Shown here in pieces: positions 11,162 through 35,799 of a stretch of 64,000 nt of DNA (its first letter is position 1; each line of letters starts with the position of its first letter). The position numbers were made by a program, and so were the translations under genes. The notes beneath the pieces were generated by a model, which worked only from the letters and a program-made list of their open reading frames with translations, was not told the DNA's origin and searched no databases. The stretch is from Vibrio tritonius (GTDB lineage: Bacteria > Pseudomonadota > Gammaproteobacteria > Enterobacterales > Vibrionaceae), in the NCBI RefSeq assembly GCF_001547935.1, contig NZ_AP014635.1:1860001-1924000 (forward strand). Direction: 5' to 3'.

Positions 11162-12408
11162 CAGGGCGACCGCATGAGTGTTTAATTTTTGCTCACTGAG
11201 TTTAAACCAGCATTAAGGACAGCTTCCAACATCGATGTATTCATCATGCAGCGTTTTTGTTTTCCCACAATGCTCAGTTTGGTTGGCTCAGAGCGCAACA
11301 TATTTAGACTAATATGACGTAAGCAAGAGAGATTCTCTGCTCCGTGGTCCTTGTAAACCTGACAAGCATCCTCGGCCATGGTGACATCTAAAACCCAATG
11401 CATTGACTCTATGCCCCAATGCTCTCTCACTGCATTTGCTGCTTGCTCTGCACTTAGCTGCTTTGAACTAATGTAGTAACGATATTCAAGCTCTGCTGTT
11501 TTGCCTTTTGGATAACGGAAATTTTCTACCATCACAATAGATTTTAGTCCCTTCCAACGTGAGAAATTGCCATCGAGAGCTTCACTATTTAATACGTATG
11601 CTTGACGAACTTCTATACGACCGTGACCTTGTTCAACCTTTATGCGCTCTGGCGTTGTTGCACGTTGAGTGGCAAAAACGGCTTCAATGGCTTTACGTAA
11701 TTTACCTTGGTTATTTTTGACCGCAAGTAAGTAATCTGCCCCTTGTCCGACGATTGTTTTCGCTATCTCGGTTTGACATGCCATTGCATCGATAGTGACC
11801 AAAGCACCTTTAATATCGAGCAGTTTTATAAGCTCAGGTATCGCTGTGATTTCATTGCTTTTCTGTTCTGTTTTAAGTTGTCCAAGGACTAACTTGTTTG
11901 AAGAGGCATACGCACTAATCATGTGGATAGTGCTAGCACGGTCATCTCTGTTGTACGAACCTCGAAGCGTCTTGCCATCAATAGCAACGATTTGACCATC
12001 CGTTAATGAATACACCGCTGACATCCAGTTAATAAAGCAGGTGTGAAACGAGTCTGGGTCAATTCTCGATAGGATGCGGGCTATCGTATCATCGACAGGA
12101 ATATCATTAATAAACATACCATTACGCTTAAACCAATCATGATGACCAAGAATGTATTCTCGAATATCAAACCACCCTTTTGCTCCAGCGATAACGGCAC
12201 ATAAAGAGCCAAACAATACCTCAAATAAACAATAAGTTACCTTGGCAGATTGGCGTTCATCTGTGACTGCGTGGAAATACTCTTTAAACTCGTCAATGTG
12301 CATGATGGGAAGCGCTCTAATTTTAAAAGAGCGTATATGATCACAGGTAAATATGATCGTCAACTCGATCATTTCAATCGTTCAAAAAACGTTCGCGATC
12401 TTACCCTG
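11162..12408 (-). mobile_element. ISAs1-family insertion sequence, complete
   Basis: The element is 1,247 bp and bounded by CAGGG at the left and CCCTG at the right, with imperfect terminal inverted repeats (CAGGGCGACCGCATGA against CAGGGTAAGATCGCGA). The 10-bp sequence GGTTGGCAGC flanks both ends (11152-11161 and 12409-12418), a target duplication of the size expected for the family. One intact transposase gene fills it. Identical flanks and an unbroken gene point to a fairly recent insertion. Confidence 0.92.
11182..12303 (-). CDS. ISAs1-family DDE transposase
   Basis: The protein has 373 residues from the ATG at 12303; the frame is open for 23 more codons to a possible start at 12372. It carries the N-terminal DDE_Tnp_1-associated domain (FKEYFHAVTDERQ), then catalytic acids in AIDGKTLRGS and VTIDAMACQ, and the glutamate in the signature REHWGIESMHWVLDVTMAEDA-type stretch. 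These are the DDE residues of the ISAs1/H-repeat group. It looks intact and able to mobilise the element. Confidence 0.95.
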   Translation of the reverse strand: MHIDEFKEYFHAVTDERQSAKVTYCLFEVLFGSLCAVIAGAKGWFDIREYILGHHDWFKRNGMFINDIPVDDTIARILSRIDPDSFHTCFINWMSAVYSLTDGQIVAIDGKTLRGSYNRDDRASTIHMISAYASSNKLVLGQLKTEQKSNEITAIPELIKLLDIKGALVTIDAMACQTEIAKTIVGQGADYLLAVKNNQGKLRKAIEAVFATQRATTPERIKVEQGHGRIEVRQAYVLNSEALDGNFSRWKGLKSIVMVENFRYPKGKTAELEYRYYISSKQLSAEQAANAVREHWGIESMHWVLDVTMAEDACQVYKDHGAENLSCLRHISLNMLRSEPTKLSIVGKQKRCMMNTSMLEAVLNAGLNSVSKN

Positions 12409-14961: not shown

Positions 14962-16092
14962 TTACACCGCTAACTCGGCAAAGCGTTCATAGCCCAGTTC
15001 GCTAATATCGATCGACGGGGTTTCGTCGTTGGCGAGTTCGGCTAATACAGTGCCGACGGAAGGGGATATACCAAAGCCGTGACCAGAAAAACCGCAGCCG
15101 AGAATTAAGCCCGGTAAATCATCGACTTTGCTGATCACAGGCACTTTGTCTTTGGAATAGTCGATAATCCCTACCCAACTGCGCACGACCTTGGCGTGTT
15201 TTAAGGCGGGAAGATAACCGAGGATGCCGCGACACGTTGCTGAGGTGGCTTCAATCGGCGTGTGATCAGAGGCTTCATTTACTAAGCTGGCATCCAAGGG
15301 GGAGCCGCCGCCAAAGATAAACGATCCGTGAGTGGTTTGATGCCCGTAGAAATCGGCCATTGCTGTGCCGAGCATTTGGTAGAACATTGGTGGCTGTGCG
15401 TCGGTGATCAACGTATCCAGTGCAACAGCAGAGATCGGCACATCAATGCCAACGGTTTGAATAATAGGGCGACTTGCTAATCCAGCGGCGACGACAATTC
15501 GGTCGGCTTCAAATTCACCGCTTTGCGTCACGACTTTTCGTACTTTGCCGCCAACCATCACCAGCTTTAACACGCTTTGTTCAGTGTAAAACTGAACGCC
15601 ACGTTGGCGCGCCGCGTTATGAAAAGCGAGTGTGGTTTTGAGCGGGTTGGCGTGACCATCGGAAGGGCACCAACTTGCGCCAATCACTTCATTGGACAGA
15701 TGCGGACAAATTTCACGTACGTCAGCGCCGCTCACCATGGTCACATCAAGTCCCTGCCCGACCGCCGTGGCGGTTAACCCTTTTAAGATATTGATATGAT
15801 CGTCGGTTTTGCCTAAACGCAAATTCCCTTGTTGGTAATACTCGACGTCGGTTCCGAGTTCTTCAGAGAGATGCGGCCAGAGATGTTTCACGCCGTACAT
15901 AGCCAGTGCCAATTCGCGTTTATCGCGCCCCGACTGGCGAACGCCACCACCATTGCGACCCGAACCACCGTAACCAATCACTTTTCCCTGTTCTAACACA
16001 ATGACTGAGCGACCTTTTTTCGCCAGATAATAGGCGGTTGCACAGCCGATAATTCCTGCGCCAATAATGATGACATCTGCGTTTTTTTTCAT
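14962..16092 (-). CDS. DadA-type FAD-dependent amine oxidoreductase subunit (HcnC/OoxB-like)
   Basis: The protein has 376 residues from the ATG at 16092. An N-terminal Rossmann motif, VIIIGAGIIGCATAYYLAKKG, binds FAD, and the DAO fold continues with GRNGGGVRQSG and the C-terminal LGCGFSGHGFG motif. This is the catalytic subunit type of hydrogen cyanide synthase, opine oxidase and D-hydroxyproline dehydrogenase, enzymes that oxidise an amine next to a carboxylate. It follows the two electron-transfer subunits by 115 bp. RidA in the same operon suggests that a reactive imine is formed. The exact substrate cannot be read from sequence. Confidence 0.85.
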   Translation of the reverse strand: MKKNADVIIIGAGIIGCATAYYLAKKGRSVIVLEQGKVIGYGGSGRNGGGVRQSGRDKRELALAMYGVKHLWPHLSEELGTDVEYYQQGNLRLGKTDDHINILKGLTATAVGQGLDVTMVSGADVREICPHLSNEVIGASWCPSDGHANPLKTTLAFHNAARQRGVQFYTEQSVLKLVMVGGKVRKVVTQSGEFEADRIVVAAGLASRPIIQTVGIDVPISAVALDTLITDAQPPMFYQMLGTAMADFYGHQTTHGSFIFGGGSPLDASLVNEASDHTPIEATSATCRGILGYLPALKHAKVVRSWVGIIDYSKDKVPVISKVDDLPGLILGCGFSGHGFGISPSVGTVLAELANDETPSIDISELGYERFAELAV

Positions 16093-16206
16093 TGTCGTTC
16101 TCTCTGCAATGCGGCGAAAACCATGCCTAGCTCCTACCATTCCCTATTGCGATTTCGTCCTTGGCAATTCAGCCTTCAGCAATACCATGCTGATACAACT
16201 AACCGA

Positions 16207-17601
16207 TTAATTTTTCTCGCTAAATTGCATGGTAGCGTACTGTTCAATACTCAATGGTTTGATTGGCGTACGAACGTGTAGCGTTCCGACCTCTTTGATA
16301 TCGATGTTGCAACTTGCCGCAATCATTTCTGTGAGCGTAGCGCCACACATTCGGCCTTGGCATGGGCCCATTCCTGAGCGAGTTTTGCCTTTGATTTGCG
16401 CTGGATGACGAGCTCCTTGGGCAATTGCCTCACGGATTTGTCCGGCAGTGATCTCTTCACAACGGCAGACTAAGACGTCATCATCCACGGGATTCAGTGT
16501 CTGGCGATTAGGCGGGAAAACGTGGTCTAAAAATGGGCGAATCGAGCGATCCCGTTTGAGCTGTTTACGATGTTCAACCGCTAGGCTCTCGCGTTCTTGA
16601 GCGGTGATTTTACCAAGTTGGTATGCGGTATTAATCGCCGCTAAATGCCCTCTCGATGCAGCGATAGGACCGCCGCCAATACCCGATGCATCACCAGCAA
16701 TCGATACTCCATCGACACTGGTTTGACCCCATTCATCCAGTTTTGGTTTCCAGTAACGCTGCGGCTCATACCATTCATGTTCGCAATTAAGAGCTTGGCT
16801 CAAACGTAAATTAGGCACAACGCCTTCATGAAGCAGCACAGATTGAGCCACAATTTCATGAGTTTTACCGCGACAGCAAAAACGAAAGCCTTCCGCCTGC
16901 TGATCGCCTATGACCTCAAGGTCGCGACAACCTATATAAAGCGGAACGCCTGCACGTTTGAGCTTTAGTCGCATCTGTAAGCCTTTGATAAGGTAATTAA
17001 CTCGCGGCCAGGCTTGATGAAGAAAAGGCGCTGCTTTCAGGTAATCTTTAAAACTTGCCGTTTCGACCATGGCAGCAATGTGCGCGCCATTATCAACAAG
17101 ATGGCAAGCCGCAAGCAGCAGTAGCGGACCGCTACCTGCAATCACCACGGGACCTTCGGGAACCATATCCGCTGATTTAAATAGAATGTCGGCCGCCGCC
17201 GCGCCCATTACGCCGGGTAGCGTCCAGTTTTTCATCGGCACAGGGCGTTCAACCGCGCCAATGCTGACTATCATGCGCTTACTACAAACTCTATGAGTAA
17301 TCCCTTTACACAGCAAATCAAGCTCAAACTGATTGGCAATATTAAGCACTGTCGTGCTTGGCATATAGGTCGCATTGGAAGCGCGAAACATCTCCACCAG
17401 CGGCTTTCCAGCAAAATAGTCTTTGCCTAATGTATCGATATTTTCTGCTCGGCTACGTTCCATCGAACGATAAATCTGACCGCCCGGCTCTGGCTGTTCA
17501 TCCACCACCAGTGTATCGAGCCCTAAGTTAGACGCAGTGACTGCCGCAGCCAGCCCGCCGGGGCCTGCACCGATGACGATAAGGTCGTACATTTTATCCA
17601 T
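16207..17601 (-). CDS. FAD/NAD(P) oxidoreductase with C-terminal BFD-like 2Fe-2S domain (HcnB/OoxA-like)
   Basis: The protein of 464 residues has two dinucleotide-binding motifs: FAD site VIGAGPGGLAAAVTA at residues 9-23 and VIAGSGPLLLLAA near residue 153. The C-terminal domain (near residues 375-430) has cysteines in VCRCEE, GPCQGRMCG, typical of BFD-like iron-sulfur domains. It matches the alpha subunit of HCN synthase/opine oxidase complexes, which passes electrons from the amine oxidase subunit. Its start overlaps the end of the upstream ferredoxin-like gene by 8 bp (RBS AAGGTGG), so the two are translationally coupled. Confidence 0.87.
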   Translation of the reverse strand: MDKMYDLIVIGAGPGGLAAAVTASNLGLDTLVVDEQPEPGGQIYRSMERSRAENIDTLGKDYFAGKPLVEMFRASNATYMPSTTVLNIANQFELDLLCKGITHRVCSKRMIVSIGAVERPVPMKNWTLPGVMGAAAADILFKSADMVPEGPVVIAGSGPLLLLAACHLVDNGAHIAAMVETASFKDYLKAAPFLHQAWPRVNYLIKGLQMRLKLKRAGVPLYIGCRDLEVIGDQQAEGFRFCCRGKTHEIVAQSVLLHEGVVPNLRLSQALNCEHEWYEPQRYWKPKLDEWGQTSVDGVSIAGDASGIGGGPIAASRGHLAAINTAYQLGKITAQERESLAVEHRKQLKRDRSIRPFLDHVFPPNRQTLNPVDDDVLVCRCEEITAGQIREAIAQGARHPAQIKGKTRSGMGPCQGRMCGATLTEMIAASCNIDIKEVGTLHVRTPIKPLSIEQYATMQFSEKN

Positions 17602-17899
17602 TAGCGGCCACCTTTTTCCCGATCTGACGGTTCACCACCATGCCATCGTGAACTAAGGTGTTACACGCTTGCTGATTAGGAACGCCGTCGATTTCCATCA
17701 GGCATTCAAAGCAGACGCCCATCTGGCAGTAACCCGCACGATGCGCGCCGCTGATAGGCGAAGTTCGGTTATATCCCATCCCAGCCGCCATCACTGAGGC
17801 TAAAACGGTTTCACCTGCCGGGACTTGCAGCGCTTGACCTTCAAAGGTAATCGTCACCAGCTCCGCTTCAGGTCGATTTTTATGAATTCTTTTCAGCAT
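17594..17899 (-). CDS. 2Fe-2S ferredoxin-like subunit (HcnA-like)
   Basis: The protein of 101 residues is taken from the ATG at 17899, six bases after GAGGAG. Four cysteines are arranged as YCQMGVCFECLMEI and, twelve residues on, QQAC, the plant-type 2Fe-2S pattern of the small subunit in HCN synthase, opine oxidase and proline/hydroxyproline dehydrogenase complexes. It is the first electron-transfer gene of the operon, 42 bp after ridA. Confidence 0.87.
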   Translation of the reverse strand: MLKRIHKNRPEAELVTITFEGQALQVPAGETVLASVMAAGMGYNRTSPISGAHRAGYCQMGVCFECLMEIDGVPNQQACNTLVHDGMVVNRQIGKKVAANG

Positions 17900-17941
17900 A
17901 CTCAACTCCTCAACGCTCCAGAAGAATCCTTATTTCTTGGA

Positions 17942-18343
17942 CTATTCGCTACAAAGTTCGCAGCCGATCATCGCTTCAAGTTCAATTTCAACCAATTGAC
18001 TAGGGCGATTAAGTTTGGGAGTTTCGACCATGGTAAACAGTGGGCGAACGTCTTTAAAAACCGCACTGTAAGCTTGCGCAACGTCTTTGCCCAAAGCCAT
18101 ATCAGTAATGTAAGCCTTTATTTTGTAGACATCTTTTGCTTCGGATCCAGCGCGTGCTAGTAGCCCAATGAATTTTTCGAAGATAAATTGCGCTTGTTCA
18201 AACGCGGTAGAACCGGATACAGAGCCATCTGGCAACACGGCGGTTGTGCCACCAATGTGGATTTGATTACCCACTTTGACCATACGCGAATAACCAGCGA
18301 TCTCTTCTAACGGCGCACCAGATGAATAGTTAATACGTTGCAT
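17942..18343 (-). CDS. RidA family enamine/imine deaminase
   Basis: About 133 residues from the ATG at 18343 (GGGAAGAG before it); the longer open frame to 18484 has no ribosome site. The RidA/YjgF fold is seen in QIHIGGTTAVLPDG near the start and DVRPLFTMVETPKL and ELEAMIGCE at the end. RidA proteins hydrolyse reactive imines or enamines to keto acids and ammonia. As first gene of an amine oxidase operon it should remove the oxidation product. The substrate arginine expected in many RidA proteins is not evident at VEIE, so activity may differ. Confidence 0.85.
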   Translation of the reverse strand: MQRINYSSGAPLEEIAGYSRMVKVGNQIHIGGTTAVLPDGSVSGSTAFEQAQFIFEKFIGLLARAGSEAKDVYKIKAYITDMALGKDVAQAYSAVFKDVRPLFTMVETPKLNRPSQLVEIELEAMIGCELCSE

Positions 18344-18644
18344 AATCTCTTCCCTTATTTGTGTACAGCTCATCCATGATGATTCCACCAACGCGAAAAA
18401 CATCAGCGCACTCATGTCAAACACGTTCTTATTAACATCGATACTAGGGAGCCGGGTTATGCGTGTATTGTATTTTTGCGACATCTAAGGCTTGTGACGA
18501 ATTCAAAATTAGCTGTTGAGGTTATGTAACCAGCTGAGCAAAGAAGCGATATTTCCTCAAACGAAACTAATCAATTTGCATATCCAAACTTAACAGCATA
18601 GAGTAAATTCAATGAGTTACATCAAAGAGACTAAGGAAGGAATC

Positions 18645-19517
18645 ATGAGTGAATATGGATGCCAATTGATGGCTGAGCCAATGACCCGAGTATTAATGCG
18701 ACGCCCGGGCAAAAGCCTGTTAGCTGCAGACAAAACGACTTGGCACTACAACGACTATTTCGATGCTAAAAAAGCCATTGTGCAATTTAATGAGTTTGCC
18801 AAGTTAATTGAAGCGACTGGCTGTGAGATTTTGTGGTTAGACGATAACGATGATGGACTTGCCGATGCCATGTTTACCCGTGATTCGTCGCTGGTCACCA
18901 AGGCAGGAGCTATTGCACTACGTATGGGTAAAAAACTGCGTGCTCCAGAACCTCAAATGCACAAAGACTTTTACGAAACCGCGGGCATTCCGATGTTAGG
19001 TGAACTCACTGGTGTAGCGCGTATTGAAGGTGGTGACCTGATTTGGTTAAACGAAACGACACTGCTTGTAGGTATGGGTTTTCGTTCGAATGAAGAAGGG
19101 GTAAAACAGCTGAATGCTCTATTAAATTCCCATGGCATTCAAGCGTTAGGATTTGATATGCCTTATTGGACAGGCGAAGATGCCTGTTTGCATTTAATGT
19201 CGGTAATCTCTCCTTTAACCGAGACTAAATATCTTGTTCATCCTCCTCTGATACCAGCACGTCTGTGGCGTATACTTCAAGAGCTTAATATTGAACTGGT
19301 TATCGCACCAGAAGATGAATTTGCTGATTCTTTTGGTCTTAACCTGAATGTGCTTCCTACCTCACCCGATCACTGCATCATGATTGAAGGTTTTCCTAAA
19401 ACTAAAGCGGTGGTGGAAGCGCATGGAGTTACGGTAACCACCTTTGCCGGAGATGCCCTTTGTATGGCATGTGAAGGCGGTCCAACCTGCTTAACCAACC
19501 CACTCGTGCGCAGTTAA
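18645..19517 (+). CDS. Dimethylarginine dimethylaminohydrolase-like amidinohydrolase
   Basis: The protein of 290 residues begins at an ATG with AAGGAAGG just upstream. It has the guanidine-modifying (pentein) fold: D80 in FTRDSS, E128 in ARIEGGD, H183 in CLHLMS and the nucleophile C282 in GGPTCLTNP close to the C-terminus. Such enzymes split citrulline from methylated arginine, or act on arginine or agmatine. It is divergent from the RidA-oxidase operon, with about 300 bp between starts. Together they suggest catabolism of arginine-derived amines or opines. Arginine deiminase is less likely because that enzyme is about 400 residues. Confidence 0.82.
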   Translation: MSEYGCQLMAEPMTRVLMRRPGKSLLAADKTTWHYNDYFDAKKAIVQFNEFAKLIEATGCEILWLDDNDDGLADAMFTRDSSLVTKAGAIALRMGKKLRAPEPQMHKDFYETAGIPMLGELTGVARIEGGDLIWLNETTLLVGMGFRSNEEGVKQLNALLNSHGIQALGFDMPYWTGEDACLHLMSVISPLTETKYLVHPPLIPARLWRILQELNIELVIAPEDEFADSFGLNLNVLPTSPDHCIMIEGFPKTKAVVEAHGVTVTTFAGDALCMACEGGPTCLTNPLVRS

Positions 19518-20821: not shown

Positions 20822-21673
20822 ATGTACCGAGCGGCAGTTTATCTGCTCGCGCTAAGGTTTCATCATACGCTAAGGAATGCTTTGCAGTTATCCAGCTTTA
20901 AACACAAAACCCGCAAAGGCCCCGACTATCGCTTTGGTGAGCAGATGTCGTTTATCGATATTCGTGACACCTTTGGTATCGGTAGCATCCGCGTGGGGAA
21001 ATGGGTGAACAGTGAAGAGAAAGATCTTGCTGCGAATCTGATATTTGATTCATTGGCCGATCTTGCTTATCTGCTTGCTATTCCCCCATCTGCGATAGGT
21101 TTGCGGGGCAATTTAAATCTCGCCTTTGGTACTGGTGGACGTAAAGGTGTACAAGCCCACTATGCGCCGAATTTGCGGGAGCTAGCGTTAGCAAAGAATG
21201 CCGGAGCCGGTGCCCTCGCCCATGAATTTTGGCACGCGTTTGATCATCACATCGCGGAAAAGGCGTTTGATATTGGCGACCGTTCCGGTCCGCAGCGGCA
21301 GATTCTGTTTGCCAGTGATTGTTGGCTGCACAATGCCAAGCCTTTTGTGCACCCGCTTAACGAAAAGCTGTTTAAAATTTTTGATGTTGCCTTACTAAGC
21401 AGTGATGGACAAGAAGTGCACGACTATGTCGCCCGCAGTGTCAAAGCGGATAAAGCCGCTGGTATTCAATACTTTTCTACACCCACAGAGATGATGGCAC
21501 GCGCCTTTGAAGCCGTCGTGGAATCTTGTTCGGGTATTGAAAATCCCTATCTTGTCGCAGGAACCACCAAAGGCGAGATGCTTCCTGTTTATCCCGACTT
21601 ACACCACCGAACCCTTATCCATCAAGCGCTACAAGACTATTTTCGCCCTTTAGGTGAAGCGTTAAGTCGTTAG
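20822..21673 (+). CDS. CLCA_X-like protein with HExxH zinc site
   Basis: The frame has 283 residues. From about residue 34 it reads DYRFGEQMSFIDIRDTFG, then AANLIFDSLADL, LALAKNAGAGALAHEFWHAFDHH, which matches my memory of the CLCA_X family of gammaproteobacteria. HEFWH is an HExxH zinc-protease motif. The role of the family is unknown. The first 30 residues look unlike the family and the ATG at 20822 has no clear ribosome site, so the true start may be later or the 5' end may be altered. The region 20598-20821 shows no gene. Confidence 0.7.
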   Translation: MYRAAVYLLALRFHHTLRNALQLSSFKHKTRKGPDYRFGEQMSFIDIRDTFGIGSIRVGKWVNSEEKDLAANLIFDSLADLAYLLAIPPSAIGLRGNLNLAFGTGGRKGVQAHYAPNLRELALAKNAGAGALAHEFWHAFDHHIAEKAFDIGDRSGPQRQILFASDCWLHNAKPFVHPLNEKLFKIFDVALLSSDGQEVHDYVARSVKADKAAGIQYFSTPTEMMARAFEAVVESCSGIENPYLVAGTTKGEMLPVYPDLHHRTLIHQALQDYFRPLGEALSR

Positions 21674-21858
21674 TAAAACAGCCAAATTACCCCTAACACA
21701 TGTAATGCTTTAACTGTTCACTATCACCATCATGAATCTTTCTCATGTTTCACATTAAGTAATACCATTGTTAATTCTGTAGCACGCCAGTTATAAATTC
21801 ATCATCGAATTTAAACACAGATGATGACAAATTCATCTAGGCAAAATGGACTCAGGCT

Positions 21859-22827
21859 ATGACTCAGAATTTTACATTTACTATTAAAAGCACTTGTCTT
21901 GATGAAAACTACCACCCATCAGACAACACTCGTATCACAACGAACTTTGCAAACTTGGCTCGTGGCGAACATCGTCAACAAAACCTGCGCAATGCCTTGA
22001 ACATGATTGATACGCGCTTTAACGAGCTAGCTTCTTGGGATAACCCAACCGGCGATCGTTACTCGGTGGAACTGGAAATCATCTCTGCTGACATTGAACT
22101 GGATGGAAAGACCATCCCTTCGATTGAAGTATTGAAAACTTACATTGTTGATAACAAAACCCATCAACGCATTGAGGGCATTGTAGGTAACAACTTCTCC
22201 TCCTACGTTCGTGATTACGATTTTAGTGTGCGCCTGCTGGATCACAATAAAGATAAGCCTGGTTTTTCTGTACCAACGGATTTTGGAGACTTGCACGGCA
22301 ACATCTTTAAATATTTCGTTAATTCAGAAACCTATGCACAAAACTTTGCGAAAAAACCTGTTATTTGTTTGAGTGTTTCCGACAGCAAAGTGTATAGCAG
22401 AACAGAGAACGAGCACCCTATTCTTGGTTTTGAATACGAGCCAAATGAATCGTCACTAACAGAACAATACTTCAAAAAAATGGGCTTACAAGTGCGCTAT
22501 TTCCAACCGAAAAACAGCGTAGCGCCGTTTGCTTTCTACTTCTTTGGTGACTTGCTAAACGATTACACTAACTTGGAATTGATCAGCACAATTAGCACCA
22601 TGGAAACATTCCAAAAAATCTATCGTCCTGAGATCTATTTCGCTCATGAAGTTGCAGGCAAGCAGTATCAACCAAACTTGAGAAATAGTGAACACTCTTT
22701 AACAGACATTGTTTACGACCGTGAAGAACGTACTCAACTTGCGATTAAACAAGGGAAATACGCTGAAGAAGTCTTCATTAAACCTTACCAAACCATTCTA
22801 GAGCAATGGTCAGCTCAGTACGCTTAA
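21859..22827 (+). CDS. mesX: MesX, DUF1852 partner of methionine synthase MesD
   Basis: The protein of 322 residues is soluble, without signal or membrane segment, and starts MTQNFTFTIKSTCLDENYHP, typical of DUF1852. DUF1852 proteins (MesX) are required, with oxygen, for the activity of the folate-independent methionine synthase MesD in aerobic bacteria (Price and co-workers, 2021). The chemistry and methyl donor are unknown. It lies 31 bp upstream of the mesD gene on the same strand, which supports the call. Internal sequence has many conserved aromatic and acidic residues but no known cofactor motif. Confidence 0.85.
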   Translation: MTQNFTFTIKSTCLDENYHPSDNTRITTNFANLARGEHRQQNLRNALNMIDTRFNELASWDNPTGDRYSVELEIISADIELDGKTIPSIEVLKTYIVDNKTHQRIEGIVGNNFSSYVRDYDFSVRLLDHNKDKPGFSVPTDFGDLHGNIFKYFVNSETYAQNFAKKPVICLSVSDSKVYSRTENEHPILGFEYEPNESSLTEQYFKKMGLQVRYFQPKNSVAPFAFYFFGDLLNDYTNLELISTISTMETFQKIYRPEIYFAHEVAGKQYQPNLRNSEHSLTDIVYDREERTQLAIKQGKYAEEVFIKPYQTILEQWSAQYA

Positions 22828-22858
22828 TCCTAAACGAGACAATTTAACGGTAACGAAC

Positions 22859-23890
22859 ATGACAAAACTATTCCCAACTTCGACTGCAGGTAGCCTGCCA
22901 AAACCAACGTGGCTTGCTCAACCAGAAGTGCTTTGGTCTCCATGGAAATTGGAAGGACAAGAGCTGATTGATGGCAAACACGATGCTCTACGAGTCGCAT
23001 TGCAAGAGCAACTTTTAGCAGGCACCGACATCGTAAGTGATGGCGAGCAAACGCGTCAGCACTTTGTAACTACCTTTATCGAACACTTAAATGGCGTCGA
23101 TTTTGAAAACCGCCAAACGGTAAAAATCCGTGACCGCTACGATGCGAGCGTACCAAGCGTGGTTGGCCCAGTATCACGTCAAAAACCAGTGTTTGTTGAA
23201 GATGCCAAATTCTTACGTTCGCAAACCGACAAGCCAATCAAATGGGCGCTTCCTGGGCCGATGACCATGGTTGATACCCTTTACGATGCGCACTACAAAA
23301 GCCGTAAAGAACTGGCGCTTGAGTTTGCTAAAATCCTGAACCAAGAAGCAAAAGAGCTAGAAGCCGCTGGCGTCGACATCATCCAATTTGATGAACCCGC
23401 CTTTAACGTGTTCTTTGATGAAGTAAACGATTGGGGTATTGCTGCACTTGAAACAGCGATTGAAGGGTTGAAGTGCGAAACCGCAATTCACATCTGTTAC
23501 GGCTATGGCATCAAAGCCAACACCGATTGGAAAAAGACATTAGGCAGCGAATGGCGTCAGTACGAAGAAGCGTTCCCGAAACTACGCGAATCGAACATCG
23601 ACATCATCTCTCTTGAGTGTCACAACTCAAAAGTACCAATGGAACTGCTGGAATTGGTGCGCGGTAAGAAAGTGATGGTCGGCGCAATTGATGTGGCAAC
23701 CAACGACATCGAAACGCCTGAAGAAGTAGCTGCAACTCTGCGCGAAGCGTTGAAATACGTCGATGCCGACAAACTTTACCCATGCACCAACTGTGGTATG
23801 GCGCCGCTTTCACGTGAAGTGGCTCGCGCCAAACTGCACGCACTGAGTGCAGGTGCTGAGCTGGTACGTAATGAGTTTCTAGCCAAATAA
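22859..23890 (+). CDS. mesD: Core methionine synthase MesD
   Basis: The protein of 343 residues corresponds only to the C-terminal catalytic half of MetE (about 755 residues); the folate-binding N-terminal half is absent. Zinc ligands are expected in HICYGYG, SLECHN and the final PCTNCGM, and the homocysteine-side QFDEPAF motif is present. It should methylate homocysteine to methionine without folate or B12, in concert with MesX. Two strong hairpins follow. The alternative, an uncharacterised MetE paralogue with another thiol acceptor, is less likely given the DUF1852 neighbour. Confidence 0.87.
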   Translation: MTKLFPTSTAGSLPKPTWLAQPEVLWSPWKLEGQELIDGKHDALRVALQEQLLAGTDIVSDGEQTRQHFVTTFIEHLNGVDFENRQTVKIRDRYDASVPSVVGPVSRQKPVFVEDAKFLRSQTDKPIKWALPGPMTMVDTLYDAHYKSRKELALEFAKILNQEAKELEAAGVDIIQFDEPAFNVFFDEVNDWGIAALETAIEGLKCETAIHICYGYGIKANTDWKKTLGSEWRQYEEAFPKLRESNIDIISLECHNSKVPMELLELVRGKKVMVGAIDVATNDIETPEEVAATLREALKYVDADKLYPCTNCGMAPLSREVARAKLHALSAGAELVRNEFLAK

Positions 23891-24007: not shown

Positions 24008-24940
24008 CTACGCCATCACTACCTTATGACGCAGACCCGCCGTCATCGCCAATTGCCCATCGGTGGTGATAACAATGGCGTCCATTCCTTCAATTTGCGT
24101 CACCGCGTGCAAAATGGCGCGTGGCTCTAAACCAAATAGCTTAGTGGTGTAAAGATCGCAGTCTAAAGAGCTATCCGCAATAATCGTCAGCGAAGCGACA
24201 CTGTTTTGTACCGGATAGCCAGTTTGACTATCAAAAATGTGGTGATATTGCTGCCCATTATGCTCAAAGGTGCGTTCGTAAATACCCGAGGTCACTACCG
24301 ATTGATTGGCTATTTTTACCGAGGCCACACAATGCCCTCTTGGTAAAAAAGGATTTTGAATACCCACATCCCAATCCAAACTTTGCTTAGGGGATTCGCC
24401 ATAGACCAGCAGGTTACCGCCGATATCCACCATTGCAGAAATGGGCAACTTTTGCTTAAAAAACGCCATGACTTTGTCGCTAAAATAGCCTTTGGCGATT
24501 GCGCCTAAATCGATTTCTAGTCCCGGCTTGGTAAAGAATATCGAACGTTCTTCATCGTTTAAAATCATGTCAGCAGGATTTAAGCGCTCTAACACCGTAT
24601 CGATTTCCGCTTGAGTGGGCACTCGCGCCTCTTTAAATCCCACCCGCCACAGTTTAACCAACGGCCCGATAGCAATATTCAAAAAACTCTTTGGATCGAC
24701 ACTATGTTGATGGCCGATTTTGATCAATTCGTATAAATCAGCATCAACCACAACAGGATGATTAGCCGCATTTATTTTCACATCGGCAAGCTGTGATGCA
24801 TCGCTATTTGCGCTAAACACTTGCTCATAACGCCGTAACATGGCACAAGCTTGCTCGAGACATTGCTCTGCATGTTCGCCTTTAAAATAAAGGCGAATTT
24901 TGGTGCCCATCAGTTCGATGAGTTGGTGTGCTTCGGTCAT
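24008..24940 (-). CDS. ApbE-type FAD:protein FMN transferase, cytosolic form
   Basis: About 310 residues from the ATG at 24940. ApbE hallmarks are the MGT near the start (LMGTKIRLYF), LNIAIGPLVKLW, LEIDLGAIAKGYFSDK, AMVDIGGNLLVYG and the SVVTSGIYERTF motif. It has no signal peptide or lipobox, unlike periplasmic ApbE, so it should act in the cytosol. Such enzymes attach FMN to Ser/Thr in FMN_bind domains. The adjacent big reductase (26702-29122) has exactly such a domain and no signal peptide, so it is the likely client. Transcribed with the LysR gene upstream of it. Confidence 0.9.
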   Translation of the reverse strand: MTEAHQLIELMGTKIRLYFKGEHAEQCLEQACAMLRRYEQVFSANSDASQLADVKINAANHPVVVDADLYELIKIGHQHSVDPKSFLNIAIGPLVKLWRVGFKEARVPTQAEIDTVLERLNPADMILNDEERSIFFTKPGLEIDLGAIAKGYFSDKVMAFFKQKLPISAMVDIGGNLLVYGESPKQSLDWDVGIQNPFLPRGHCVASVKIANQSVVTSGIYERTFEHNGQQYHHIFDSQTGYPVQNSVASLTIIADSSLDCDLYTTKLFGLEPRAILHAVTQIEGMDAIVITTDGQLAMTAGLRHKVVMA

Positions 24941-25009
24941 GTCATCTCTCTTACTTTTCAGCATGCGCGCGGTTGTCGTCAGTAGCTTTGCTCATTGATA
25001 GCAACATTC

Positions 25010-25939
25010 TTAATATTCTGCCGTATCTTTATAGCGCATAAAGGCATCCACCAGCCCTTTATCCATCTCAGTGAGATCACGGTTGTAGTGGTGAGCAATA
25101 AAATAGTCCGCGTTAAGTTGCTCAACGGGCAACATGTAAATGTTATAGTTTTCTGCACATGGTTCAATCATCAAGCTTTCCGGCACAAACGTCACTCCGG
25201 CATCTGCCATGGCCAGATTTTTTACGGTTGCTATCTCGCAGCTCTCTAGCACGATATCAGGCTTTATCTTATAAATATCAAGCAGGTGGTCGACCTGTGT
25301 CCGAATTACCGACCCTTTTATCGTTAGTACCAACTTTTGGCTAAGTAACTCATCCATCGCAATACTGCCTTGGGGAATCATCGCTGTGCCTTTTTGGTAG
25401 AGTGCGCTCGATTTAGGTATCACCGCATAGTATCGATGGTTTCCCCATGACACCGCTCTAAGATTAGGGTCAAGATGCCTTGAATTTTGTCCCACCCAAA
25501 AATCGACTTCACTTTTTAACAGTCTCTTCTCGTTGTTATCTGGCATATCTTCCACCAACTCAATTTGACACAGCGGATAATTCGCTAAAAATTTGGGCAG
25601 AAACAAAGGCAAAAGATAAGAACCAATGCTTGGCAAAATACCTATCTTGATGGTCGTTTTATCCATATCGGTGATAGCAGTGATATTACGGCGCATATTG
25701 GAATACACCGTTTCTATCGAGCCCAGATAATCGTAGTAAATCTTGCCCTGCTCAGTTAAACGATATGGCAACTCACTACGGTTGATAATTTGGCAATTAA
25801 GCTCACTTTCAATCCGTTTGATCACTTGCGTAAGATAAGGTTGCGAAATTTTAAGGGAATCGGCTGCCTTACTGTAATTGCTGAATTTGAGTAACGCATC
25901 GATGTAATAGAGGGTGTTTTGACTGCGATATTTTGACAT
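25010..25939 (-). CDS. LysR-type regulator of the reductase cluster
   Basis: The protein of 309 residues has an N-terminal winged helix (NYSKAADSLKISQPYLTQVIKRIE) and a substrate-binding domain with the LPSIGSYLLPLFLPKFL and PDNNEKRLLKSEVDFWVG pattern. It is divergent from the reductase pair (150 bp between starts) and reads into apbE after 69 bp. The most likely role is sensing the organic acid substrate and switching on both the reductase genes and apbE. The ligand is unknown. Confidence 0.87.
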   Translation of the reverse strand: MSKYRSQNTLYYIDALLKFSNYSKAADSLKISQPYLTQVIKRIESELNCQIINRSELPYRLTEQGKIYYDYLGSIETVYSNMRRNITAITDMDKTTIKIGILPSIGSYLLPLFLPKFLANYPLCQIELVEDMPDNNEKRLLKSEVDFWVGQNSRHLDPNLRAVSWGNHRYYAVIPKSSALYQKGTAMIPQGSIAMDELLSQKLVLTIKGSVIRTQVDHLLDIYKIKPDIVLESCEIATVKNLAMADAGVTFVPESLMIEPCAENYNIYMLPVEQLNADYFIAHHYNRDLTEMDKGLVDAFMRYKDTAEY

Positions 25940-26088
25940 TGCTCAATCTCACTATGCGCTTAAGTGCATTCCTATAACAAATTACTTATCAACCCTTATT
26001 TTATAGCTATTAGATAGCAATTGCATACTGTGATACAACTGAACACAGAATTTAATTATGGCTATGACAATTTAGGGAAACCTCTACT

Positions 26089-26700
26089 ATGAACTACTTA
26101 GCAATTGTTGGCACCAACTCCAAGGTGTCAACAAATCGTATGTTACTGCAATTCATGAAAGAGCATTTTAAAGACGAAGCCCAGCTTGAACTTTTTGAAA
26201 TAAAAGACCTGCCCGCTTTCTACGAACCTGACGATAACCAAGCCCCCCAACAAATTGTTGAACTATCAGCAAAAATTCTTGCCGCAGATGGCGTTATTAT
26301 TGCCACGCCGGAGTATGACCACACCATTACTGCCGCACTAAAAAGTGCGTTAGAGTGGATCAGTTACACAACGCAAGCACTGACGGATAAACCCGTTTTG
26401 ATCGTGGGTGCTTCCCATGGTGCTTTGGGTTCTTCTCGCGCTCAAGCTCACCTTCGTCAGATTCTTGATTCCCCAGAATTGGCCGCTCGCCTTATGCCGA
26501 GCAGCGAATTTCTCCTTGGTAAATCGCAAGCTGCTTTTAATGCTGGAGGGGCTTTAATCTATCCAGAAAAGGTCACAGAACTCGATGAAATTTTTAGAGA
26601 ATTCATGTTATTTACCGACCTTATTACAAAATTGTTATCAGAGAAGCCCGCAACTCGTAAAGGTAAGAAATTCGCTTGGCAAACTCAGGAGGCAAAATAA
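26089..26700 (+). CDS. NAD(P)H-dependent FMN reductase-like subunit (CrdA-like)
   Basis: The protein of 203 residues is a flavodoxin-like FMN reductase of the YieF/SsuE group: [21 protein letters not shown] at the start for phosphate binding, [20 protein letters not shown] and [20 protein letters not shown]. It closely resembles the N-terminal domain of the next gene, so the two probably arose by duplication. Spacing is one base, with AGGAGG overlapping its end. In reported heterodimeric NADH:cinnamate reductase of a Vibrio, a similar small partner pairs with a three-domain subunit. Confidence 0.85.
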
Positions 26701-26701
26701 C

Positions 26702-29122
26702 ATGAAATTTGCAGCTATCGTTGGAACTACGTCTCCAAAATCATACAACCGTACTCTACTTCAATTCATGCAAGCGTATTTCAAAGACAAAGCGGAAATT
26801 GAACTGTTAGAGATCAACGACGTTCCTATGTTTAACCAAGATTTGCCATCAAACAACGCGCAACTCTTAGCCATCAATGAAAAAATCAACGCCAGCGATG
26901 GTGTGATCATCGCAACACCTGAATATAACCATTCGATTCCATCTAGCCTAAAAAGCGTGCTGGAATGGCTTAGCTATGAGCTACATCCATTGGATGGCAA
27001 ACCTGTAATGATTATTGGTGCCTCTATTGATTCTCAAGGCTCTTCACGCGCGCAGCTACACCTTCGCCAAGTATTAGATGCTCCTGGTGTTAACGCCAAC
27101 GTGATGCCGGGTTACGAATTTTTACTCGGTAACGCCAACAAAGCCTTTGATGAAAACGGTAATCTTAACAGCGAAGGCACCATCGACTTCTTAGAAAGAT
27201 GTTTCTTACGCTTTATGCGTTTCGCCAAAATTTCTAATCAGCTCAACGAAGAAGAGGAATTTTCATTCACTCCGGGCACTTATGATGTTCACGCTCTAGG
27301 TCACGGTGGCGCGTTACCGATGAAAGTGGCGTTCAGTGAAAAGCGCATCGAAAGCATTGATATCGACACCGCTGGCGAAACCGAAGGTTTAGCAGACGTG
27401 GTATTTGTACGCATTCCAGACAAAATCATTGAAGGCCAAACCCTTAATGTAGATGCCCTATCCGGCGCATCCGAAACCAGTAATGCCGTGCTTGATGGCG
27501 TAGCAAAAGCAGTGAAACTGGCTGGTGTAAACCCAGATATTTTAAGAAAACGACCAAAACCAGCAAGCAGCATCAATCAAGGCGATGAAGAGTACACCTG
27601 TGATGTGGTTGTGATTGGCGGCGGCGGTGCAGGTTTAAGTGCAGCCGCAACTGTATTACAACAAGGTAAAAGCGCGATTGTTTTGGAAAAATACCCAGCG
27701 GTTGGCGGTAACACTATTCGTACTGGTGGCCCAATTAACGCTGCCGATCCAGAATGGCAACGTACCTTCGATGAAAACCCAGGTGAACGTCATACTATTC
27801 AACATCTTCTTAGCATTGATGAAAAGGACATTCACCAAGAGTACCTTGCAGATTTTCGCGCCCTTAAAGATGAGTTTGCCAGCTACGAAGCGCAATTTGG
27901 CGAAGGCAAAGGTTACCTATTTGACTCACCACTGCTGCACCGTATGCAAACTTACTTCGGTGGTAAGCGTACCGATTTATTGGGTAATGACATCTACGGT
28001 CAATATGACTTAGTGAAAATCCTAACTGACCATGCCCTCGAAAGTGTGCAATGGTTAGAAGAGATTGGTGTGGAATACGATAAATCCATCGTGTTTGCCC
28101 CAGTGGGCGCGCTATGGCGTCGTGGTCATAAACCAGTGAAAAAATACGGCACGGCTTTTGTGCTGGCATTGAGTCAATACATCGAAAAAATGAACGGTAA
28201 GGTCATTACCGATACTCCAGCACAAGAGTTTTTGATTGAAGATGGAGAAATCAAAGGCATTATCGCCACTGGCGTGAATGGCCAGAAAGTGACTGTTCGT
28301 GCTAACGCGGTTGTGCTGGCAACGGGTGGTTTTGGTGCCAACACTAAGATGCTTCAACAGTACAATACTTACTGGAGCAGCATTCCTGATGATGTGAAAA
28401 CCACCAACTCTTACGCAATGACCGGTGATGGTATCGTTCTTGGTCAATCAGTTGGTGCTGGGCTAACCGGTATGGGCTTTACCCAAATGATGCCAGTAGC
28501 CGACCCAATTACTGGTGAGCTGTTTAGTGGCCTGCAAGTACCGCCAGAAAACTTCGTGATTGTGAACAAACAAGGTAAACGTTTTATCAACGAGTTTGCT
28601 GGTCGTGATGTTTTGACCAAAGCAGCATTGGCAGAAGGTGGCCTGTTCTATCTCATCGCCGATGATGAAATCAAGAAAACCGCAGCAAACACAAGCCAAG
28701 AGAAAATCGATCGCCAAGTGGCAGCAGGCACGTTATTTAAAGCCGACACCCTTGAAGAGTTGGCGCTAAAAGTCGGTATGGACCCAGCAACACTGGTCGA
28801 CACCGTCGCTAAATACAACAGCTATGTTGAAGCGGGCGAAGATCCAGAGTTCCATAAAGATACCTTTAGCTTGAAAGTGGAAAAAGCGCCGTTCTACGCC
28901 ACTCCACGTCAACCGGCGGTTCACCACACTATGGGTGGTTTAAAAATTGATACCGCAACTCGCGTACTTGATGAGAACAATCAACCAATCAAGAACCTAT
29001 ACGCGGCAGGTGAAGTAGCCGGTGGTATCCACGCTGGTAACCGCCTTGGCGGTAACGCACTTGCTGATATCTTCACGTTCGGCCGCATTGCAGGCAAAAC
29101 GGCGATGGCAGAAATGGACTAA
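26702..29122 (+). CDS. Three-domain NADH-dependent alkene-acid reductase (acrylate/cinnamate reductase type)
   Basis: The protein has 806 residues from the ATG with AGGAGG before it; the longer frame to 26585 overlaps the upstream gene. Residues 1-180 are an FMN reductase, 190-283 an FMN_bind domain with the flavinylation motif DALSGAS at 251-257 (Ser257 probable FMN site), and 300-806 a fumarate reductase-type FAD flavoprotein ([10 protein letters not shown] at 303-311). R635, H742 and R781 match catalytic residues of fumarate reductase, but the usual QxHP is Q-M-M-P at 595-598, as in relatives that do not use fumarate. No signal peptide, so cytosolic. ApbE next door fits covalent FMN. Substrate is an inference. 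Confidence 0.88.
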
Positions 29123-33320: not shown

Positions 33321-35150
33321 TTATTTAGATTCAAAAGAACCTAAGTCTGGTGCACTACCGTTGTAATCAAGACCCACATTGGTACCAGCATCAATAAGGT
33401 CACTGCCTGATTTCAAGTGGAAAGACTTAACGACTGGCAAACTACCATCGCTTTGGCGGTCAGCCAGTAAGCCATCAATACTTACGCTATTGAAGTCAGA
33501 TGATGAAGCTGAAAGGCCATTCTGCCAGCTGTTGTTAGAAATGCTGGTTGAACTGCCGCCAAATTTGTCGCTGTTATCCCCACCCAAAGAAACGCTGTTT
33601 TTGATAGTCAGTTTCTTCAATTGACGAGAGCTGCCATCACCCAAACCAAAGTTACGGTCATTATCATACGCAACTGCGTTGTAGATAGTAACAGTGCCTC
33701 GGTTACTGTTTTGGTCATAGCCATCTGCTGTGTTACCAGCAGAAATAGTATTGATGTACAGACCGTTGTGAGCTAGATCTTTATCGTCACTACCACCGGT
33801 TTTAAAGCCGTTACCATCACCAGCACCTTTCACACCATTTTTCTGATAACCGTTTCTGATCATCCAAGTGTATTCTAGAGTGGTGGTTACAGAGCTACCG
33901 TTATCACGTAGGTAACCATCAAAACCATCATCTAGGTTATTCCATGCACGACAACCGTAGAAGTAGTTACCAGTCCCTACCGTTAATTTAGCGGCAAAGC
34001 CGTCAGCATTTTCAAGTGATGAGTCGGCATTGTAGTAAGAGTCTGAGTTTTTGATAAAGTTATACGCCGCGCCACTGCTGATCTGTAAACCGGTATCGGC
34101 GTTTTCATAGAACTTCATAAACTCAATGGTATTGTGAGACCCTGTGAGGTACATACCATTATCGCCTGCTTTAGTGATATCAATACCGTAGATATGCCAG
34201 TAATTTGCACTCACTTGGAAACCACGGTTAGAGCTCTTTTCAGACATTGCTTGGAAATTAAATACCGGGTGATCGTCTCCAGGATACACACTCAGTACGA
34301 TAGCTTTAGATGACGTACCACTGTTTTTTATCTTAATGGTGTCTGAAGGATAGTAAGTACCTTCACGAACGTAGATAACATCGCCAGCGCTGGCGTCATC
34401 AATCGCCTCAAGTAAACCAGCCAAGCTAGAGACTACCGTTGCACTGGACTTCTTACTTTTAATAAATGAAGGGTATCCGTTGGTCAAAGGTTCACTGTTC
34501 GCCCCAGCACTTTTAGCTGCAGATGCGGTAGGCGCAGCAGAAGAACTTGAGATATCAACAGTTGACGAGCTACCAGAATCAGAATCGGATGAACTGTCTG
34601 AATCAGAACTTGTAGAACCACAGGTTCTGGTCACAGGTTCAAGCCACCAGCGCTGAGAACTGCCACCGGCATCGGAGTTTTGATAAACATCAGAACCTTC
34701 TGATGAACCCGCAACCGTCATAAGCAAATCGGACTTGGCATTGATGATTTTATACGCCCCTTTATAGGTGCCAGATGTTACCTGCTCCAATTCCCACTCT
34801 TGACTTGTCGAACCACTGAAAGGCTTTTGTTGAATGGTGGCACCATTACTTTTCGACCCACCTTCCACCGTGGCAGCATAATCGGTATTAGAAGCCTGAA
34901 TCGCCCAATATCCATTGCTCTGCTTATTTAAGTAGAATCGTTGCGAATCACTGCCCGTGTTTTTTTCTATCTCTACGTTTGCTTTTTTCGCTGTCGATTC
35001 AGCGGCAACAAGCATATCTACACCGGTACTAACAATTTTGTACACGACCCCATCAACAGCCGCATCGGTACAATAATCTGCTGCGTAAACTTGGCTACTG
35101 ACCATAGCGGAGCCCATTATTCCCGCAATAACAATGGGCAAAGTTTTCAT
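33321..35150 (-). CDS. Secreted RICIN-PL9 pectate lyase
   Basis: About 609 residues from the ATG at 35150. A signal peptide (to about residue 23, VSSQVYA) is followed by a RICIN-type beta-trefoil lectin (25-175, with QEWELE and QRWWLEP repeats), a Ser/Asp linker (about 178-205) and a right-handed beta-helix (240-609). PL9 residues are visible: D383 and K388 in NADGFAAKL (calcium ligand and catalytic base) and D407, D408, D411 in NNLDDGFDG. It should cut pectate outside the cell by beta-elimination with calcium, the lectin giving binding to polysaccharide. No other pectin genes are in the window. The chemoreceptor next door could serve the same habitat. Confidence 0.9.
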   Translation of the reverse strand: MKTLPIVIAGIMGSAMVSSQVYAADYCTDAAVDGVVYKIVSTGVDMLVAAESTAKKANVEIEKNTGSDSQRFYLNKQSNGYWAIQASNTDYAATVEGGSKSNGATIQQKPFSGSTSQEWELEQVTSGTYKGAYKIINAKSDLLMTVAGSSEGSDVYQNSDAGGSSQRWWLEPVTRTCGSTSSDSDSSSDSDSGSSSTVDISSSSAAPTASAAKSAGANSEPLTNGYPSFIKSKKSSATVVSSLAGLLEAIDDASAGDVIYVREGTYYPSDTIKIKNSGTSSKAIVLSVYPGDDHPVFNFQAMSEKSSNRGFQVSANYWHIYGIDITKAGDNGMYLTGSHNTIEFMKFYENADTGLQISSGAAYNFIKNSDSYYNADSSLENADGFAAKLTVGTGNYFYGCRAWNNLDDGFDGYLRDNGSSVTTTLEYTWMIRNGYQKNGVKGAGDGNGFKTGGSDDKDLAHNGLYINTISAGNTADGYDQNSNRGTVTIYNAVAYDNDRNFGLGDGSSRQLKKLTIKNSVSLGGDNSDKFGGSSTSISNNSWQNGLSASSSDFNSVSIDGLLADRQSDGSLPVVKSFHLKSGSDLIDAGTNVGLDYNGSAPDLGSFESK

Positions 35151-35799
35151 ATTGTTCACTTTCACCGTTTTGAGTCCTTCTAGATTCAACATATAAAGTA
35201 ACACTTTCGATTGTCCATCAGCGATATATCACAACTGCTTGTTGCTGATTCGAATCAATGCTATCAAACTAATTGACCATCAAAATAAAAAGAATTGAAG
35301 AAATGGATGGAAAACTAATAAATGAAATAACGTTTTATTTTGTTGAAAATCTTTAGCAGAGTTCACAAAAATATTATTAACAATATGGTATTAAATTATG
35401 TAAATGTGTGATTACCGTTCGAAAAATTAATTTGGCAAATAAATGAATTTTGGAAAACCGAACTATAGGATAAATAAAAACAGCTAAAAATGCGTATAAA
35501 AACCCAGAATTAAAAATGTGCTCACCTCGACCTTAAGAACTAACACCTAGCGAATGCAATGCATGAAAAAACACTATAAATTAACACCTTAATGACACTC
35601 AAGGCAAAAAGTCTTAGCGAGTTTTACATAACCTGCGCTTAATTTCGCCATTAGCACACCTATTTTTCATATCAATTTGGTTTTAAAAAAATTGAAAAAC
35701 CAAACAATCTATTTGTGTAAAACTAATATTTAACATAATTAACAATAAGAAATACCAGCTCAAAAATTCATACTTTTGTTGTATCAGAATGGACATAAA
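35151..35799. other. Long AT-rich divergent intergenic region
   Basis: About 650 bp between the lyase and chemoreceptor starts. It holds no gene, terminator or repeat that I can support. It presumably contains both promoters. Its length suggests room for several regulator sites. Confidence 0.5.

Follow-up and report, generated by a model that had tools for sequence, protein, structure and literature searches.

Among methionine synthases, the closest described relatives of the locus treated here are the MesD/MesX systems of Acinetobacter baylyi ADP1 and Sphingomonas koreensis (PMC7857596). In these other species, MesX and oxygen were reported as required for methionine synthesis, and MetF and vitamin B12 as dispensable. 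The same study places a putative flavin reductase near mesXD and predicts a flavin for MesX. From the regulatory side, PF08908-metE2 is listed as a well-conserved target of MetR, with ATGAA-N5-TTCAT as operator consensus (PMC4239095), and B12 lowers DUF1852 transcripts in Acinetobacter baumannii (log2 -8.33; PMC12892962). Here, a stretch of 64,000 nucleotides from Vibrio tritonius (assembly GCF_001547935.1, contig NZ_AP014635.1, positions 1,860,001 to 1,924,000; referred to as the window) was analyzed for a gene pair of this kind. Judged from its sequence, region 21859-23890 is in all likelihood a mesX-mesD operon encoding a folate- and B12-independent, O2-dependent methionine synthase system, a confidence that applies to the system and its overall reaction. 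The locus is a further copy of the published system and ordinary for its group. Its features are as follows.

21859-22827, plus strand: mesX (DUF1852, PF08908), putative oxygenase of 322 amino acids, profile match of 572.4 bits
22859-23890, plus strand: mesD, core methionine synthase of 343 amino acids lacking the folate half (PF01717, NF006589, 3rpd_A)
21732-21746, plus strand: candidate MetR-type operator-like box ATGAATCTTTCTCAT, matching 9 of the 10 fixed bases of ATGAA-N5-TTCAT

Both open reading frames were recovered at the positions and lengths given in an initial annotation of this DNA, on the same strand and separated by a spacer of 31 bp (22828-22858). MesX covers the PF08908 profile from end to end (1-323 of 323; E = 3e-172, cut-off 25 bits), which bears out the earlier assignment to DUF1852; this family, currently named 'Putative oxygenase MesX', is its sole Pfam match. 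In MesD, only the MetE catalytic domain PF01717 is found (130.5 bits) and the folate-binding half is absent, while the full-length MetE model TIGR01371 is matched with 106.6 bits, far below its cut-off of 929.95. Hence, the description of the second gene as a MetE catalytic half without its folate-binding half also stands. For membership in MesD, a threshold of at least 560 bits to ACIAD3523 has been applied (PMC7857596). As stand-ins for ACIAD3523, NCBIfam model NF006589 (683.7 bits, cut-off 392) and the nearest solved relative, 3rpd_A (666 bits), were used here; 3rpd is treated as a MesD structure in that same paper. Alignment with the MetE of the same genome furthermore showed that the zinc ligands H211, C213, E253 and C312 as well as the homocysteine-binding residues S12, E63 and D178 are present, their roles being taken from PMC7857596. 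For MesX, no solved structure was found at E values up to 1.

To place the pair in context, the best 80 of at least 590 confirmed matches from named genomes were compared with 8 kb of sequence on each side where the contig allowed. These loci stem mostly from marine Gammaproteobacteria, so that counts refer to related and non-independent genomes, and they fall under 31 hand-typed labels, mostly genera but also some families or a metagenome-assembled genome. In 76 of the 80 loci, mesD follows mesX on the same strand (phmmer, >300 bits), a pairing which cannot be attributed to chance. One of the remaining four has a short MesD, and the other three are Pseudoalteromonas luteoviolacea loci with a solo mesX. 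The latter were considered as a possible new system and rejected, as all three genomes hold a second, complete mesX-mesD-TauE set elsewhere. As a side observation, the solo mesX genes (L080, L081, L084) encode the conserved residues, with one change in L081, and a TauE gene lies alongside in L084. Taken together, family models, the seven MesD residues, the pairing in relatives and the box upstream of mesX agree with the MesX/MesD reading of the initial annotation. The profile search proposed there was passed by both proteins at the cut-offs of PF08908 and NF006589, and neither of the contrary outcomes it had named, i.e., a grouping of the 343-residue protein with an unrelated MetE-like clade or a partner not matching DUF1852, was found.

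The first base of the box lies 127 bp before the mesX start codon. Scanning of one strand over 250 bp plus 20 bp revealed that 63 of the 80 relatives have a box with 9 or 10 fixed bases no farther than about 250 bp ahead of mesX. Such boxes were far rarer among controls drawn from the same loci, with 50 found in 1600 random windows and 11 in 359 intergenic regions upstream of other genes. In V. tritonius itself, the metF locus carries a 10/10 box, and the LysR gene divergent from metE scores 379.2 bits against the MetR model, just below the cut-off of 382. In the metE-metR gap, however, no box exceeds 8 matching bases, and the metH locus lacks any with at least 9; thus, the motif alone misses some expected targets in this genome. 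A window-wide search for the short MetR core pattern with one mismatch allowed gave 49 occurrences versus 47.3 expected by chance. Evidence comes only from where the box lies, ahead of mesX, and from its being conserved at that site. On this basis, control of mesXD by MetR is predicted with good confidence. Other control elements were not apparent in the window, since neither riboswitches (Rfam, gathering scores) nor MetJ operators (two tandem boxes, up to 3 mismatches) gave any match.

Genes next to mesXD in other bacteria are of special relevance for the reaction of MesX. On plasmids of Comamonas and Acidovorax, an MsuE-type reductase (PF03358; 252.1 and 251.8 bits versus a cut-off of 212.5) is located directly upstream of mesX. 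Similar genes of 66-80% identity occur in L050, on the upstream side of mesX, and in L061, immediately downstream of it. A second type, belonging to PF01613, is found downstream of mesD on plasmids of Thioclava, Acinetobacter and Croceibacterium; tblastn matches to it were obtained in L125, L135 and L138 (28-31% identity) and, as a partial match of 83%, in L055. MsuE-type and PF01613-type reductases are unrelated in fold. In total, 5 of 16 plasmid loci carry a reductase beside mesXD, these loci having been hand-picked for variety among 60 listed of 209 MesX records, with an incomplete gene table. Among the 80 relatives' loci, the PF01613 type occurs three times and the MsuE type not at all, so a reductase is far from universal. 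The V. tritonius genome encodes one PF01613 protein (86.9 bits), located away from mesXD. The occurrence of two reductase families beside mesX speaks for an oxygenase whose reduced flavin is delivered by another enzyme.

Besides mesD, a TauE/SafE-type membrane protein (PF01925) is the only neighbor that is both frequent and steady in position, being present in 44 of the 80 loci and under 14 of the 31 labels. Its gene lies divergently upstream of mesX in 35 loci, downstream on the same strand in six and downstream on the other strand in three. LysR genes come next with 21 loci and scattered positions. One count of neighbor positions left out L138, which had not been placed, while a later one took all 80 loci. 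By tblastn, TauE-like matches anywhere in the stretch were obtained for 48 of the 80 relatives, for 11 of 31 loci of the family and for 4 of 23 of the phylum, the latter two sets showing 1.5 kb on each side. In a tree rooted on the V. tritonius genome's own TauE paralogue, the mesX-linked proteins split into two clades, members of one clade being 68-99% alike and members of different clades 31-40%, and a third type from an Acinetobacter plasmid shares 35-41% with either clade. Similarity of mesX-linked TauE to a paralogue of the V. tritonius genome (34-40%) is comparable to the divergence between the clades. Plasmid loci carry TauE in 3 of 16 cases (Acinetobacter, Vibrio and Pseudoalteromonas). 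The V. tritonius genome has two paralogues, 41% and 28% identical to the mesX-linked type, both outside the window. Because unlike TauE members occur in unlike positions, a functional link between TauE and mesX is suggested. A word search of the main texts of PMC7857596, PMC12892962 and PMC4239095 did not reveal this link, nor did a wider literature search return, among the matches listed, a paper holding both TauE and DUF1852.

Based on these comparisons, a reaction sequence can be proposed. MesD is the zinc enzyme, to which homocysteine binds and by which it is methylated on sulfur, and MesX is most likely the oxygenase half of the system. A separate flavin reductase would supply MesX with reduced flavin; MesX would let this flavin react with O2 and with a small molecule drawn from central metabolism, yielding an activated methyl group for MesD and an oxidized, perhaps anionic, co-product. 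That MesX uses flavin is somewhat favored over the opposite. The anionic nature of the co-product is put forward tentatively and with more doubt than conviction, with TauE in 44 of 80 loci and in diverged groups as its support. Sulfur compounds such as methanesulfonate, suggested as methyl donors by MsuE and TauE, are not preferred because rescue of Escherichia coli was reported in M9 glucose, where a source of them is not evident (PMC7857596). The most far-reaching version of the proposal, regarded as rather unlikely in its entirety, would have MesX as an oxygenase fed with reduced flavin mononucleotide (FMNH2) and built on a fold new for flavoenzymes, i.e., a core like that of GCN5-related N-acetyltransferases (GNATs). 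Such an enzyme might split a methyl group off a small organic or sulfonic acid and pass it on in activated form, perhaps as N5-methyl flavin, to MesD; export of the leftover anion would then account for the three diverged TauE/SafE types beside mesX.

As an alternative to flavin use, MesX could be an oxygenase that relies on a metal, namely non-haem iron held by H146, H186 and an acid (E192, D119 or D121), with the reductases merely supplying electrons or being incidental. Conservation of these residues is in line with such a site, as H186, E192, D119 and D121 are found in 96 of 96 MesX sequences and H146 in 95 (the window's own MesX included), and the oxygen dependence reported in PMC7857596 would likewise be explained. 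On the other hand, the MesX of L119 has Asn at position 146, and two reductase families linked to mesX in several arrangements are more than incidental neighbors would be. Iron-based catalysis is considered appreciably less probable than a flavin-fed MesX.

A different type of chemistry is conceivable from the predicted structure. The AlphaFold2 model of MesX has a mean predicted local distance difference test score (pLDDT) of 90.9 and displays what we take to be the strand-helix order of GNAT folds, supplemented by two inserts and a helical C-terminal part. In a structure comparison with this model, rows 1-29 are acyltransferase-type proteins; the 50 matches listed include no flavoprotein, which leaves room for one. 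The most conserved stretch, G110-S123, sits at the junction of strand 4 and helix 3, which is the place where GNATs bind coenzyme A (CoA). MesX might thus be a GNAT-like acyl-CoA-binding protein that cuts a methyl group from acyl-CoA with O2, the donor being a CoA thioester such as acetyl-CoA; we regard this as improbable and retain the FMNH2-fed oxygenase as the preferred reading.

The role of mesXD in its host has to be seen against the other methionine genes present. The genome of 5.22 Mb in two contigs contains a single MesX copy along with one full MetE (1119 bits), one MetH (1823 bits) and MetF (339 bits), which makes mesXD an extra route, presumably one that would operate aerobically and free of B12. 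Wider overlap of MesD/MesX with MetE was already described in PMC7857596, where activity only in air was suggested. Also observed in this genome were three more short MetE-like genes of 378-392 amino acids (L034, L035 and L036), which match the MetE model only weakly and in part. Among sampled genomes, MesX was detected in 90 of 197 from the family and in 25 of 299 from the phylum, and it occurs in 209 of 72,556 plasmid records. The closest organism-named MesX proteins among the matches listed come from Vibrio, and a tree built from 96 MesX sequences groups the protein with those of Vibrio plantisponsor and V. metschnikovii at a local support of 1.0. A replacement of MetE by mesXD was rejected for the family sample, as MetE (E up to 1e-150) is found in 74 of 90 genomes with MesX and in 88 of 107 without (odds ratio 1.0, p = 1); since MetE is equally common in both groups, mesXD is an addition and not a replacement. 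That mesXD is a dispensable or decaying remnant in view of MetE, MetH and MetF is highly improbable: the window's MesX deviates from consensus at four of 150 columns conserved to at least 95% (F86I, M216Q, N261F and N263H) and has the third-lowest of 90 full-length family scores, but it retains the other 146 columns, neither of the two frames is shortened, the seven MesD residues and the operator-like box are all kept, and redundancy with MetE is the rule in the family.

The initial annotation had further pointed to a flavin-reductase cluster within 2.2 kb of mesD, which comprises the following genes.

24008-24964, strand opposite to mesXD: ApbE, following mesD
25010-25939, strand opposite to mesXD: LysR, following ApbE
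26089-26700: FMN_red protein of 203 amino acids, following LysR
26585-29122: protein of 845 amino acids with FMN_red, FMN_bind and FAD_binding_2 domains

While the position was right (the FMN_red gene starts at 26089), the link to mesXD did not hold. Opposite-strand genes lie in between, none of the four genes has a counterpart in the 80 relatives' loci (called genes, blastp 1e-30, >60% coverage), and the FMN_red protein is unlike mesX-linked MsuE (17.7 bits). In 2 of 80 loci (L141 and L149), a looser tblastn search returned FMN_red-like stretches of 28-31% identity, which lie some 6 kb away from mesX. The cluster was rejected as the source of a MesX reductase and is taken as a chance neighbor of mesXD, and the window's mesXD operon contains no flavin reductase gene. 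The earlier expectation that each new genomic context would be informative was not borne out either, in that the neighbors in this genome are uninformative and informative contexts were found in relatives. The 845-amino-acid protein passes the flavocytochrome c model (343.4 bits, cut-off 285.45); its frame as listed overlaps that of the 203-amino-acid protein at 26585-26700, which renders its start uncertain. The set at 24008-29122 presumably resembles the acrylate or cinnamate reductases of Vibrio, which are flavinylated and depend on NADH, and ApbE would attach the flavin mononucleotide; no literature support was found for this likeness. Just upstream of mesX, a CLCA_X family protein with an LPD1 domain is encoded at 20822-21673 (NF041907, 343 bits, cut-off 260), for which the same blastp settings gave no match in the loci of the 80 relatives. 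Farther away, the window contains a three-piece oxidoreductase resembling sarcosine or hydroxyproline dehydrogenase (14962-17905; DAO, Pyr_redox-Fer2_BFD and Fer2_4) that adjoins a Rid protein (17942-18484) and an arginine-deiminase-like gene (18612-19517), as well as an ISAs1-family transposase (11182-12372, 418 bits) and a pectate-lyase-like protein bearing ricin-type lectin domains (33321-35204).

The key question around mesXD is the origin of its methyl group. Reductases of two families and three diverged types of anion exporter near mesX narrow this question, and as neighbors they predict FMNH2 as assay input and an exported anion, sulfite or sulfonate included, as readout. Four points are added here to the published picture: the operator was put to a test, the hint from the flavin cluster was dismissed, reductases of two families were recognized, and TauE was found associated with mesX. 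In combination, they facilitate tests of the MesX reaction. Compared with MesD/MesX of A. baylyi ADP1 and S. koreensis, the V. tritonius locus features the same two families in adjacent genes, a MesD without the folate half and the same zinc and homocysteine residues. In contrast to these systems as described in PMC7857596, no reductase lies beside the pair, MetE and MetH are also encoded in the genome, and a MetR-type box is present upstream. Such a box upstream of mesX is shared with PF08908-metE2 of the MetR regulon; the prediction in PMC4239095 spans five to seven taxonomic groups, whereas here the window and 80 loci were scanned with two controls. With the catalytic half of MetE, MesD shares PF01717 and the zinc ligands, but it comes without the folate-binding half. 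Finally, two-component FMNH2-dependent monooxygenases with MsuE- or HpaC-type reductases are resembled by those relatives that carry such a reductase next to mesX or mesD, from which the present case differs in that MesX matches only PF08908 in Pfam and its operon in the window has no reductase.
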